Positions 1,594-6,047 of a DNA stretch of 64,000 nt are shown one piece after another (the stretch's first letter is position 1; every line of letters begins with the position of its first letter). Origin of the DNA: Nitrospinae bacterium CG11_big_fil_rev_8_21_14_0_20_45_15 (GTDB lineage: Bacteria; Nitrospinota; Nitrospinia; Nitrospinales; VA-1). Location: NCBI GenBank assembly GCA_002787235.1, contig PCWG01000001.1, forward strand, positions 1 through 64,000. The letters run 5' to 3'. The notes under the pieces were generated by a model. The model was given only the letters and a program-made list of their open reading frames with translations. It was not told the origin of the DNA and did not search any database. The position numbers were made by a program, and so were the translations under genes.

Positions 1594-2094
1594 TTATAAT
1601 GGATTTTTGTTCCTTTTTTTCTCCAGGCGGCGTTGTTTTCGCATTTCATTTTCAGCGATCATTTCTTTAATTTGTTTTTCTAGTTTGGATACCTGCTCCA
1701 TCGTCGCGCGGAGACGATGGATAACGATTTTCAGGATAATCATCAATCCCTGAGGTTTGTGTTTGCATAGAAATGAAAGTTGCTCTTCGGTTATTTCTGA
1801 CAGTTTGCATTCTTCCAATGCAACCGCTGTCACTGAGTAAGTGGATTTTTCGATCAATGACATCTCTCCCAGAAGGGCCTTGCCTTCCAGGATCGATATG
1901 GATATTTTTTCTCTTTCTTCCGTGGTTTTAAATATTTCTATGGAACCGGATTTGAGCAAATAAGCGCATCGACCGGGATCCCCTTGTTTGAATATAATAT
2001 CTCCCTTCTTAAATATTTTTTCTTTTAAATCAGGATCACGTCTTTCAATCTGCCTTCGATCTTCTCTGCGGCGGTCTTCTTCTTTGTCTATCAA
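1594..2094 (-). CDS. Small cyclic-nucleotide-binding (CNMP) domain protein
   Basis: A 166-residue soluble protein. A highly charged N-terminus (residues 1-22, mostly Asp, Glu and Arg) leads into one CRP-type beta-roll: IIFKQGDPGRCAYLLKSGSIEIF, then LLGEMSLIEKSTYSVTAVA, which is the phosphate-binding cassette. A coiled-coil, Lys/Arg-rich tail follows (about 130-166). There is no helix-turn-helix, so it is not a CRP/FNR transcription factor. It may bind cAMP or another cyclic nucleotide, or serve only as a beta-roll adaptor. The start is TTG at 2094, with AGGAGGT 7 bases upstream, the best ribosome binding site nearby. It lies 97 bases downstream of the ZIP-CNMP transporter on the same strand and may act with it. 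Confidence 0.85.
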   Translation of the reverse strand: MIDKEEDRRREDRRQIERRDPDLKEKIFKKGDIIFKQGDPGRCAYLLKSGSIEIFKTTEEREKISISILEGKALLGEMSLIEKSTYSVTAVALEECKLSEITEEQLSFLCKHKPQGLMIILKIVIHRLRATMEQVSKLEKQIKEMIAENEMRKQRRLEKKRNKNPL

Positions 2095-2191: not shown

Positions 2192-3520
2192 TCATGCGGC
2201 CATGATTTTAACGACCAAAGCGGACAGAAATCCTCCCAGAGTTGAAAGACCGATGATGGAACCGCCCTGCTCGAAAGCTTCTGGCAACATGGTCTCGGCG
2301 ATCATCGTCAGCATCGCTCCGGCGGCAAGGCTTTCGATGCCCACAATGAAGTACATAAAATTTCCTGTGGGTTCGGCGGGGAATATAACCGCTCCGATTA
2401 AAGCACCGATCCCGGTCATAAGGGTTATGGAGCCCCACATGGCGTAAATTTTGGTTGTTTTCATGCCCTGGGCTTTCATACTCAGAGCACTGGACATTGA
2501 TTCTGGAAAGTTTGCGAGAAACACGCCTGCGATGAATGCGAGGCTCATACCCGATGTGCTGGCGGCCAGCATACCGATGACCAGAGATTCCGGGATGCCG
2601 TCCAGCAGGATCCCCAACCAGATGGCCAGGCCGGCACCTCCAGTTTTTTGAGATTCTTCGTGGATTTCTTTGATGCTGACGGAGGTGGATTCGTTCTCAA
2701 GGTGACGCAGAGTCTGTTCTTTCCAGTGCGCATTTATTTGCAGGTGGCGGTGTTCCAGCGAATCGATTCGCTCAGTGCTCAGTTCTTTCAATGCGGACTT
2801 CAGCTCAACGCACTGCGTCATTACTTCCTGAATATCTTCTTTGCCGATTCGATAAACTTGAAGGTCTGTTTTGGCGATGGCATCGGCGGTGCGTGGAAAA
2901 CCACCGATGACTCCAAGTTCGCCAAAGGTGTTGCCTGTTTTAAGACAGGCCAGCAATTTGCCATCCGCATCGTTTGTCTCATGCAGGATGATGTTCACTT
3001 CTCCGTCGCAGATGAAATACATTTCCCTGGGATCATCTCCCTGTGAAAATATTTTTTCACCGGCGCGGTACTGGCCTTTTTTGATACGCCCGACTAGAAA
3101 TGCCATTTTCTCAGGTGGGACATATCGGAGGATTTCTATTTTTGACAATTCTTCAATCAGCTTGTTTTTGCGAGAAAATTTGAGGTAGCTTATGTATTGC
3201 CGGGCGGTGGAAAGATTGCGTAGAAAAGCACCTTTATTGTTCAACTGATTGTTAAGAAAATCAAAGAGGAGGCCGCCGGAGATAGCTCCAATGAGGGTAG
3301 CGATGAGGCTGGTCATGCCATGTTCGCGGACGTGGTGCGGAACGTGACCGAACAATTCGATGGTCAGCGCGAACAGCAGGGCTCCAGCTCCAAATGACAT
3401 GAAGACGGCATTGACTTTTCGACCCGGTTTTAACCACAAGCCAACAGCGGCACCGATCAGTAGAGATATTGCACTGAGTATTCCCCATAAAAAAGCTGAA
3501 GCACCGAGTGACAGGGGCAT
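2192..3520 (-). CDS. ZIP-family metal transporter with inserted CNMP domain
   Basis: A 442-residue membrane protein. Residues 1-95 form about three transmembrane helices of the ZIP fold. Residues about 120-255 are a complete CRP-type cyclic-nucleotide-binding domain (EKIFSQGDDPREMYFICDGEV, then GNTFGELGVIGGFPRTADA) in place of the usual variable cytoplasmic loop. Residues about 295-442 hold the remaining helices, with DGIPES and NFPES where ZIP proteins carry their HNxPEG metal motifs. Both canonical histidines are thus replaced while the glutamates remain. The ATG at 3520 has AAGGAGA just upstream. Gating of divalent-metal transport by a bound nucleotide is inference; altered ion selectivity is equally possible. 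Confidence 0.8.
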   Translation of the reverse strand: MPLSLGASAFLWGILSAISLLIGAAVGLWLKPGRKVNAVFMSFGAGALLFALTIELFGHVPHHVREHGMTSLIATLIGAISGGLLFDFLNNQLNNKGAFLRNLSTARQYISYLKFSRKNKLIEELSKIEILRYVPPEKMAFLVGRIKKGQYRAGEKIFSQGDDPREMYFICDGEVNIILHETNDADGKLLACLKTGNTFGELGVIGGFPRTADAIAKTDLQVYRIGKEDIQEVMTQCVELKSALKELSTERIDSLEHRHLQINAHWKEQTLRHLENESTSVSIKEIHEESQKTGGAGLAIWLGILLDGIPESLVIGMLAASTSGMSLAFIAGVFLANFPESMSSALSMKAQGMKTTKIYAMWGSITLMTGIGALIGAVIFPAEPTGNFMYFIVGIESLAAGAMLTMIAETMLPEAFEQGGSIIGLSTLGGFLSALVVKIMAA

Positions 3521-3544: not shown

Positions 3545-3898
3545 TTATATTACTTCAGACAAATCAGGAATTTTAAACACGCTGGATTTTTCTACCGACA
3601 TTTGATAGATGAACCCACCGTGAGGTTGATTGATTTCAGCTTCAAAGAAAATAAATTCGAAAATCTCATCGGCGCGTTCCGCCTCGACGATGACGGAGAT
3701 TACATCTACTTCGGCATAATTTCCATAACTCACTGCGTCAGCTACGGCAGTACTGCGTCCGCGACCGCGATGGATATTGCAGGTGTTGATATTTTTTTGT
3801 GCGTGCAGGCTTTCGACAATTTCTAACGCGCGGTCTTTGGGAAGAATTACGACAATTCGTTTGGGATTGTTGATGACGGGTGGTTCTGGTGGAGTCAT
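3545..3898 (-). CDS. PII-like protein, distal gene of DUF1538 operon
   Basis: A 117-residue protein with the ferredoxin-like beta-alpha-beta pattern of PII proteins: RIVVILPKDRALEIVESLHA, then a loop containing GRGRST, then VDVISVIVEAERADEIFEFIF. It lacks the PII signature tyrosine region, so uridylylation is not expected. Its ATG overlaps the end of the preceding PII-like gene by four bases (ATGA), which indicates translational coupling. With the neighbour and the DUF1538 protein it forms a three-gene operon. A PII-like protein encoded beside a transporter usually binds a small nucleotide and gates it; the ligand here is unknown. Confidence 0.75.
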   Translation of the reverse strand: MTPPEPPVINNPKRIVVILPKDRALEIVESLHAQKNINTCNIHRGRGRSTAVADAVSYGNYAEVDVISVIVEAERADEIFEFIFFEAEINQPHGGFIYQMSVEKSSVFKIPDLSEVI

Positions 3899-4275
3899 TT
3901 TTTTTCCTCCGTATTGTCAGGAGTTGTTTTCAAACGTTCCAGAATCTCAGGTGGAATGTAGGTGGCGGCTTTTTCTACCCGGGTGATGTACATGATGCCC
4001 ATCCCGGGAGTATCGAGATTGCCGGCAAAATACATTTTTTCAAAAATACGTTCCACCTGTTCGCTGGAAACGACAATGTTGATGACTTCTTTTTCAACAT
4101 CGACCGCGACACCTAAAATGCCAAGACGTTCTCGAACACCCATTCCACGTGCGAAATAAACGGTTGCGCCCTGTGCACCTGCTGACTTTGCCGCTACAAT
4201 TATTTTGTCGGCGGCACCTCTTTGCACGATACAGGTAATCAGTGCCACATCACTCAATACAGTTATTTTTCTCAT
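3895..4275 (-). CDS. PII-like protein, middle gene of DUF1538 operon
   Basis: A 126-residue PII-like protein: a first strand and helix (ITCIVQRGAADKIIVAAKSA), a glycine-rich ARGMGVRERLG segment where PII T-loops begin, and a second repeat (KEVINIVVSSEQVERIFEKM). The C-terminus is charged and disordered. It begins 5 bases after the stop of the DUF1538 gene and ends overlapping the next PII-like gene. The two PII-like proteins differ clearly in sequence, so a hetero-oligomer or two separate ligands is possible. The family assignment rests on fold pattern and context and not on a diagnostic motif. Confidence 0.75.
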   Translation of the reverse strand: MRKITVLSDVALITCIVQRGAADKIIVAAKSAGAQGATVYFARGMGVRERLGILGVAVDVEKEVINIVVSSEQVERIFEKMYFAGNLDTPGMGIMYITRVEKAATYIPPEILERLKTTPDNTEEKK

Positions 4276-4280
4276 GAAAC

Positions 4281-6047
4281 CTATGCCTCTAGGCCGTTGG
4301 TTAATAATTCTTCTTCAACATTTTTCTTTGATCTGGCCTGGTATTGGATCCAGAGTCCCATGGAAAGCACGGAGACAATCGGGCCAATAGAAGCCATGGA
4401 AAGAATTCCGAAACCTTCTACCGCATTGACGGCATCTCCAAAGCCCAGACCCATTGCTAGCACGAGTGGTACGGTAACGGGGCCGGTGGTCACTCCCGCA
4501 CTGTCCCAGGCCACGTTCACGAATTCCTCGGAAGAACAGTGTGTCAAGAAAATCCCCAACAAGTAACTGGGCAACAGGATGTAGCCGATGGGAATATCAT
4601 AAATTATTTTGACCAGACCCACTGCAATGCCGCATCCCACGCCAAAAGAAACCGAATACATGAGCATCTCTTTTTTAAAAGCACCGTTGGTAAGATTTTC
4701 TACAACCAGTCCCAATGCATTCAAGGCGGGTTCTGCGAGAGTGGCTCCAAATCCCAGTATCCATGCAAACAGGATGGCAACGGTGATGCCCATAGAATAA
4801 GTAAATAGCGGGGAATCTTTAATATGGTTCAAATGTGTGAAAGATGCGGGAACGAGACTCCCCGATTGACTGCCTAATTTGGCAAGGCCATAACTGAGCC
4901 CCAGGTTGAAAATGATCATCCCCAGAACAGAAAGGATCAAACCGTAAGTGACGATTCCTGACTCTTGCAGTTTTTCTTTGAGTACGAAAATCAGTACGAG
5001 GAATAAAAAAATCACCAGAGGAACAATGGCCTGCAATCCACCAATGATTTCTATATAGGGTGTGGTTTGATACCAGTTGATACTCTGTGTTGCCGCCGCC
5101 TGCGTGGATGCGGTATTCAAGATATCTTGCACGGAATAGTTGAAAGAAATATAGATCGACAACAGCATGACCGCTATGATTGGAAACAGGGAGGCCAGAG
5201 TCACGATCCCAAAACCAGAGAGGGAGGAACTCCCTTTTCCTGCGGCGGATGCAATGCCGATTCCGAGAGAAAGAACCAGAGGAACAGTGACAGGGCCCGT
5301 GGTTACGGCTCCGCAATCCCAGGCCAGTCCCAGTGTTTTAGCCAGATCGGGTTGGCTCATGCAATACAGGGTGAGCAAGAGAGTGGGACACAAGGTGGCA
5401 TAGATGATCGGTTTGAGGCTCCATCCATACAAAAATCGCAGGGTCCCCAAAACTGCGGCAAGGCCCACACCGATTCCCACCAGCAAAACCAGTGTTCCCG
5501 CCCACTGATTCAACAACACATAAAGATAGGGGGCCTTATGAATATCGACGATCGACCCTACGGTTTGTAACGCGCCAATGGCTGGTTCTGCAAAAGTCAC
5601 CCCGATACCGAGCAGAAATCCAATGAACAGGACGACAGGTAATTTTGATTTTTTAGGCAGACGGTTGCCAATCAATTCTCCAAAAGGCATCAGGCCGAGT
5701 TTCAAGCCTTCCATAAAAACCATCAGCCCAATGATAACGGCAAACAGTCCCCATACAATGATGGCGTGGTCCAAAACCTCTTGTCGAAGAATAAGAACCT
5801 GAAACAGGACGAGATAAAGTGCCAAGGGTACAACGGCACGCACCTGGGCCTGAAGCCTGACGCTGATATAGGGTGACAGGAGCTTGGCAACATCAATGCT
5901 TCTCAGGTGAATCTTTTTCGGATGGAAAGGGATTTCTTGACCCGAAGAGTCCAGAACGGGCTTGGGAGTCAGCTCATTATAGCTGATCGTTTTTTGGTTG
6001 ATTTTTATTTCGCGTGTGAAATCACCAAATCGTATTTGTTGATTCAT
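4281..6047 (-). CDS. Double DUF1538 multipass membrane protein
   Basis: A 588-residue integral membrane protein made of two homologous halves after a cytoplasmic N-terminus of about 70 residues. Each half contains an AEPA motif (GVTFAEPAIGAL and GATLAEPALNAL) and a nearly identical signature (AVTTGPVTVPLVL and GVTTGPVTVPLVL), the mark of the DUF1538 family. As I recall, two-gene DUF1538 proteins (UmpAB) from Halomonas behave as Na+/H+-type antiporters; here both halves are in one chain, so cation/proton exchange is the best guess. It is first in an operon with two PII-like genes 5 bases downstream. The ATG at 6047 lacks a strong ribosome binding site. Confidence 0.85.
   Translation of the reverse strand: MNQQIRFGDFTREIKINQKTISYNELTPKPVLDSSGQEIPFHPKKIHLRSIDVAKLLSPYISVRLQAQVRAVVPLALYLVLFQVLILRQEVLDHAIIVWGLFAVIIGLMVFMEGLKLGLMPFGELIGNRLPKKSKLPVVLFIGFLLGIGVTFAEPAIGALQTVGSIVDIHKAPYLYVLLNQWAGTLVLLVGIGVGLAAVLGTLRFLYGWSLKPIIYATLCPTLLLTLYCMSQPDLAKTLGLAWDCGAVTTGPVTVPLVLSLGIGIASAAGKGSSSLSGFGIVTLASLFPIIAVMLLSIYISFNYSVQDILNTASTQAAATQSINWYQTTPYIEIIGGLQAIVPLVIFLFLVLIFVLKEKLQESGIVTYGLILSVLGMIIFNLGLSYGLAKLGSQSGSLVPASFTHLNHIKDSPLFTYSMGITVAILFAWILGFGATLAEPALNALGLVVENLTNGAFKKEMLMYSVSFGVGCGIAVGLVKIIYDIPIGYILLPSYLLGIFLTHCSSEEFVNVAWDSAGVTTGPVTVPLVLAMGLGFGDAVNAVEGFGILSMASIGPIVSVLSMGLWIQYQARSKKNVEEELLTNGLEA

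Follow-up and report, generated by a model that had tools for sequence, protein, structure and literature searches.

A fused DUF1538 transporter with two PII-family genes in a Nitrospinota genome, and the widespread pairing of DUF1538 with PII

A transporter gene followed by a gene for a PII-fold protein is known from the AmtB-GlnK and SbtA-SbtB systems, and two adjacent PII paralogues with one target are known from nitrogenase (NifI1/NifI2). The PII-like protein SbtB, with AMP bound, docks on SbtA via its T-loop (PMC8352866). Divergent PII proteins of the PII-NG type cluster with proton-cation antiporters, CzcABC (PMC7726332). For the DUF1538 family, UmpAB of Halomonas zhaodongensis was tested in E. 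coli and is a Na+(Li+,K+)/H+ antiporter with demonstrated salt tolerance; the 2017 paper never mentions PII, and umpB is the last gene of the cloned fragment (PMC5484666). This is the only functional work on DUF1538 found in the searchable literature, and no report of an association between DUF1538/UmpA and PII was found in openly searchable sources, subscription papers lying outside this scope. Because public records already annotate a P-II gene adjoining DUF1538, novelty is claimed here for the system and not for the annotation.

The stretch of DNA analyzed (the window) comprises 64,000 nucleotides at the start of contig PCWG01000001.1 of a Nitrospinota genome. It contains a unit of three genes, all on the minus strand: a transporter gene, PIIA, and PIIB. 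An earlier note on this DNA, made from the sequence alone, described a membrane gene with duplicated TTGPVTVPLVL motifs, a PII-like gene 5 bases after it, and a second PII-like gene overlapping the first. This layout is exact: PIIA begins 5 bp after the stop codon of the transporter gene, the overlap is 4 bp, and an identical 11-mer begins at residues 249 and 520 of the transporter, once in each of two PF07556 halves. The features are as follows.

4281-6047, minus strand: 588-aa membrane transporter of the fused DUF1538 type (UmpA-UmpB-like); PF07556 362.8 bits, in two stretches
5901-6047, minus strand: soluble N-terminal extension, ~50 residues ahead of the first helix, characteristic of the two-PII type
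5154-5822, minus strand: N-terminal DUF1538 half; PF07556 186.6 bits
5580-5591, minus strand: AEPA motif of the N half, residue 153; helix break in the model
5271-5303, minus strand: TTGPVTVPLVL of the N half, residues 249-259; exact match
4353-5015, minus strand: C-terminal DUF1538 half; PF07556 183.2 bits
4725-4736, minus strand: AEPA motif of the C half, residue 438; helix break in the model
4458-4490, minus strand: TTGPVTVPLVL of the C half, residues 520-530; exact match
3895-4275, minus strand: PIIA, conserved PII-family protein, 126 aa; PF00543 36.3 bits
3906-3910, minus strand: GGAGG ribosome-binding site of PIIB, 7 bp upstream
3895-3898, minus strand: ATGA overlap, 4 bp, of the PIIA stop (TGA) and PIIB start (ATG); translational coupling
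3545-3898, minus strand: PIIB, divergent PII-family protein, 117 aa; PF00543 23.8 bits plus structural model

Both the window transporter and UmpAB are DUF1538 pairs. The transporter exceeds the PF07556 gathering cutoff of 22.6 bits in both halves, and the NCBIfam models for UmpA and UmpB match its N half and C half, respectively. It differs from UmpAB in being fused and in having the N-terminal extension, the TTGPVTVP motif, and the PII genes. Close relatives are found in Nitrospina and Nitrospinaceae MAGs, several of which have loci in common with genomes of the Nitrospinota sample. The NifI1/NifI2 target is an enzyme, whereas the putative target in the window is a transporter. At 24 bp downstream of PIIB lies a gene for a ZIP-family metal transporter with an inserted cyclic-nucleotide-binding domain (residues 150-236; window 2192-3520, minus strand), which is followed by a gene for a stand-alone cNMP-binding protein (window 1594-2094, minus strand). 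A conserved operon that includes the ZIP-cNMP gene was considered and rejected; this gene is absent from every other DUF1538 locus read.

The PII fold is supported for both small proteins, as the earlier note had proposed. PIIA scores 36.3 bits on PF00543, above the cutoff of 25 bits, and a profile of its relatives matches solved PII proteins (E 1.9e-10 to GlnB-1 of PDB 3o8w). PIIB reaches 23.8 bits (E 5.9e-5), 1.2 bits under the cutoff; among its orthologues, that of locus L045 scores 26.3 bits and the others fall below the cutoff. An alignment of the two paralogues matches PII structures. The AlphaFold2 model of PIIB (pLDDT 86.4) has the PII beta-alpha-beta-beta-alpha-beta order, and its best Foldseek match is GlnK (probability 1.00, TM ~0.64), although the underlying alignment includes PIIA rows and the predicted fold of PIIB therefore rests partly on PIIA.

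A search for conserved synteny, suggested in the same note, revealed a PII gene directly downstream and on the same strand in 134/134 complete DUF1538 loci with enough downstream sequence; some of these are near-copies (SAR116 group), and the sample is weighted towards Nitrospinota and Gammaproteobacteria, so they are not 134 independent events. They consist of 70 split umpA/umpB loci with one PII, 9 fused loci with one PII, 40 fused loci with two PII genes, and 15 fused loci with a multi-PII protein. PII also stands beside 28 of 29 further loci picked by best UmpA-model scores, some in genomes overlapping the first set, and the exception (L238) has only 706 bp to inspect. No genome of this further set is at the UmpA equivalog cutoff, so the Halomonas locus itself is not in the sample. 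Across 77 Nitrospinota genomes, DUF1538 and DUF1538-type PII (called at E below 1e-8) occur in exactly the same 48. The 76 PII hits include 73 that adjoin DUF1538, two at one end of a contig of 5,447 bp, which most likely complete a DUF1538 locus cut off at the end of another contig, and one orphan PIIB. Every one of the 63 Nitrospinota DUF1538 loci is matched by PII, in one case across a break between contigs, and 75 of the 76 hits belong to such loci. Among the Gammaproteobacteria sampled, about a third (125/369) have DUF1538.

The genetic unit is real and widespread, and the linkage exceeds chance by far. Since the small proteins have the PII fold and their pairing with DUF1538 is near-universal, the logic of a transporter with a PII sensor, for which the earlier note had invoked AmtB-GlnK and SbtA-SbtB, is strongly supported at the genome level. 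It differs from these two systems in several respects: the unit includes no known AmtB or SbtA homologue, the PII partner is DUF1538, the transporter matches no solved structure in sequence or fold, and there are two PII paralogues. The unit has the appearance of an ion transport system under sensor control that is widespread across several bacterial phyla.

Several loci depart from the common arrangement. The orphan PIIB (L266 2427-2789, G059:C22) has neither DUF1538 nor PIIA beside it and lies near what seem to be transport genes; of the DUF1538 systems, its genome retains just the split one. A MAG labelled Opitutales (G078) has two DUF1538 loci (L042 and L083), one of which is 70% identical to that of the window; misbinning or transfer is possible. 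Two decaying DUF1538 copies (L229 and L228) have several broken frames and still have the PII. In L226 (G168:C84), one PII gene lies between tandem DUF1538 genes, the second of which is cut by the contig end.

The number of PII domains per locus forms a series from one to three. One PII accompanies the split umpA/umpB pairs and a separate group of 504-540-aa fused transporters. Two PII genes, as in the window, are found in Nitrospinota and in Gamma-, Beta-, and Alphaproteobacteria. Two tandem PII domains in one protein of ~223-231 aa occur in four Clostridial records filed as plasmids (L143, L146, L147, L148), and three in proteins of ~390-412 aa in Gammaproteobacteria (L192, L193, L195, L198, L213). 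The three-domain form also appears in the sample from Verrucomicrobiota, the phylum to which the Opitutales genome belongs, where the third domain is weak (L210, L211), and four other loci there (L191, L207, L208, L209) have two detected PII domains and a C-terminal remainder. In all of these multi-domain proteins Pfam sees one PII domain or none, the rest coming from our own profile with less certainty. A stretch of ~60 residues between domains 2 and 3, apparently conserved, was observed in three-domain proteins (L213 2176-3411, L192 5138-6310, and relatives). Each kind of multi-domain protein has a single well-conserved domain, the remaining ones being degenerate. The occurrence of such tandem proteins beside other DUF1538 transporters shows that PII domains which are not equivalent function jointly as a unit.

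The split type has a fourth gene, which encodes a pair of CBS domains. The order umpA-umpB-PII-CBS is conserved in Nitrospinota and Gammaproteobacteria, and the window genome itself has such a second DUF1538 system (contig C37; L009, G000:C37, 5239-7601). Of 75 single-PII loci, 70 are followed by a CBS-domain gene, vs none of 50 multi-PII loci, a tally that includes three loci in which the CBS gene overlaps the PII gene and that, because of the relatedness of the loci, represents fewer independent events. A general proposal, which we hold tentatively and at somewhat below even confidence, is that DUF1538 antiporters are a widespread transport class in which a PII regulator is built in and obligatory. 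This regulator would have evolved from the subunit of a homotrimer through conserved-plus-degenerate pairs to three-domain single chains (a covalent pseudo-trimer), and the extra PII domains would replace a CBS adenylate sensor.

For the window, our preferred reading, to which we give an even chance, is a cation/proton antiporter under the gating control of a PII sensor of the adenylate type, PIIB being its degenerate partner subunit. Judging by its homology to UmpAB of Halomonas, the transporter would be a fused equivalent of the UmpA:UmpB heterodimer, of the cation/proton antiporter type, and a dedicated PII complex at its cytoplasmic face would set its activity. PIIA would be the sensor, a PII trimer with an effector of the adenine-nucleotide type in the inter-subunit cleft, whose shortened T-loop, or a nearby surface, would open or close the transporter. 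PIIB, a paralogue with most of the conserved cleft lost, may take part in a mixed PII complex as a subunit that does not sense, or may stack on PIIA as a second layer. In the single-PII relatives, it is probably the CBS-domain protein that serves as the corresponding second input. What we infer thus comprises the physical complex, gating, an adenylate ligand, a mixed oligomer, and Na+/H+ as the ions. A regulated transporter is probable, an adenylate signal and a mixed PIIA-PIIB complex are plausible, and the transported ion is an extrapolation. Adenine nucleotides are commonly bound by CBS domains, and it is mainly for this reason, together with the AMP site of SbtB (PMC8352866), that an adenylate signal is proposed. 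As for c-di-AMP, this ligand is unlikely here since the window genome has no match for a diadenylate cyclase.

The strongest alternative, itself unlikely, is that PIIA and PIIB form two separate homotrimers that read two signals (e.g., energy charge and ion or bicarbonate) and both act on the transporter. Both genes are under purifying selection (dN/dS ~0.01-0.1 for PIIA and 0.05-0.27 for PIIB in pairs with unsaturated dS), and PIIB forms one well-supported group in the tree (38/38) on a long branch, together with one stray PII from a decayed locus. This selection and tight clade indicate that PIIB has its own function. PIIB also retains R34, F74, and G89 (numbering relative to E. coli GlnB), and the linkage of CBS, a different type of sensor, to single-PII loci suggests a second input. 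On the other hand, only three columns are conserved at 90% in PIIB, compared with 35 in PIIA, and PIIB is without most residues conserved in PIIA, including most of the cleft. It evolves much faster (median pairwise identity 34% vs 64%), and the joining of conserved with degenerate domains in the tandem proteins speaks for mixed assemblies. PIIB thus looks like a degenerate partner subunit of PIIA. The two sensors of the earlier note are present as two genes, one state of the series, but their equivalence is doubtful, PIIB having lost most of the PIIA-conserved residues. The tree rests on 101 columns with long branches, so no dating was based on the branching order of PIIA, PIIB, and the tandem domains.

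A little less likely is that the window-type DUF1538 carries another substrate, such as bicarbonate or another anion, under PII control like that of SbtA-SbtB carbon uptake. The sole functional evidence comes from Halomonas UmpAB in E. coli, and the window transporter falls far below the UmpAB equivalog cutoffs (NF041627/NF041628, 204.9 vs 490 and 163.5 vs 500 bits). It also has TTGPVTVP in place of the TTSTxTVP of its split relatives, and for these two reasons the transported ion may differ. TTGPxTVP is found in most of the three-domain type, and neither form is clear in the Clostridial two-domain type. The genome encodes DabA as well, so carbon uptake matters to the organism. Nevertheless, one member of the family has demonstrated antiport activity and salt tolerance (PMC5484666), and AEPA is common to most types examined, being altered in part of the Clostridial two-domain type. 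AEPA and TTGPVTVP are conserved in each half, at helix breaks in an AlphaFold2 model of moderate confidence (20 sequences, pLDDT 73). This model matches nothing in the PDB (best E 0.043, TM 0.15), which leaves no relative from which to borrow an oligomeric state. PDB 9p1x, which has two P-II chains, was rejected as a transporter complex: DabA of this genome matches only 9rd0, 9rd8, and 9rd9, the DUF1538 profiles match no relative among solved structures, and no paper in the searchable literature names 9p1x. Our guess is that 9p1x may be a nitrogenase-NifI complex. Of 34 two-PII transporters compared, 33 have the soluble N-terminal extension (one start is unclear); it is shorter in most other types, and in the three-domain type a longer linker joins the transporter halves. 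The extension and the linker are candidate docking sites.

Direct sensing of the transported cation or a metal by the PII proteins, rather than of a nucleotide, in the manner of CutA or of PII-NG linked to CzcABC antiporters, is improbable. PII-NG (PMC7726332) shares with the window a divergent PII linked to a cation/proton antiporter, in the window a putative one, and CutA is a distant fold match of the PIIB model. The canonical ATP contacts K90, R101, and R103 are absent across the DUF1538-linked PII groups, so nucleotide binding cannot be assumed. These residues and Y51, as known from GlnB/GlnK, are not conserved in the PIIA or PIIB columns, and neither protein has the C-terminal CGPxGC loop of SbtB. 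PIIA and the single PIIs also lack R38, and their T-loop is several residues shorter. By contrast, the glycines that frame the nucleotide cleft remain: column comparison shows T29, G35, G37, G87, and G89 in PIIA and single PIIs, the second Clostridial domain keeps the cleft glycines and T29, and the middle domain of three-domain proteins keeps the glycines. R39, E40, and R46 are conserved in PIIA near the T-loop base. No conserved Cys/His/Asp metal cluster was found, C6 of PIIA being absent from single-PII proteins, and the linkage to CBS points to adenylates. Unlike PII-NG, the window has no CzcABC nearby; its PII genes lie downstream of DUF1538, and the neighbours are DUF1538, ZIP-cNMP, and cNMP genes.

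It is very improbable that co-transcription of the PII genes serves expression alone and that their target is something other than the transporter: the PII-transporter interaction is deduced from the genomes and one PIIB lies away from any DUF1538 gene, but co-occurrence is exact, adjacency persists over several phyla with different gene fusions, and orphans are very rare.

If PII is obligatory, as in the general proposal, the UmpAB measurements, made without a PII partner, describe an unregulated transporter, and the DUF1538 family, present in 125/369 Gammaproteobacteria and 48/77 Nitrospinota, gains a regulatory mechanism. The series of one to three PII domains would allow tests of PII symmetry logic, in which each site of a single-chain multi-domain PII could be changed separately. 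PII control would thereby extend to a further class of membrane transporters.
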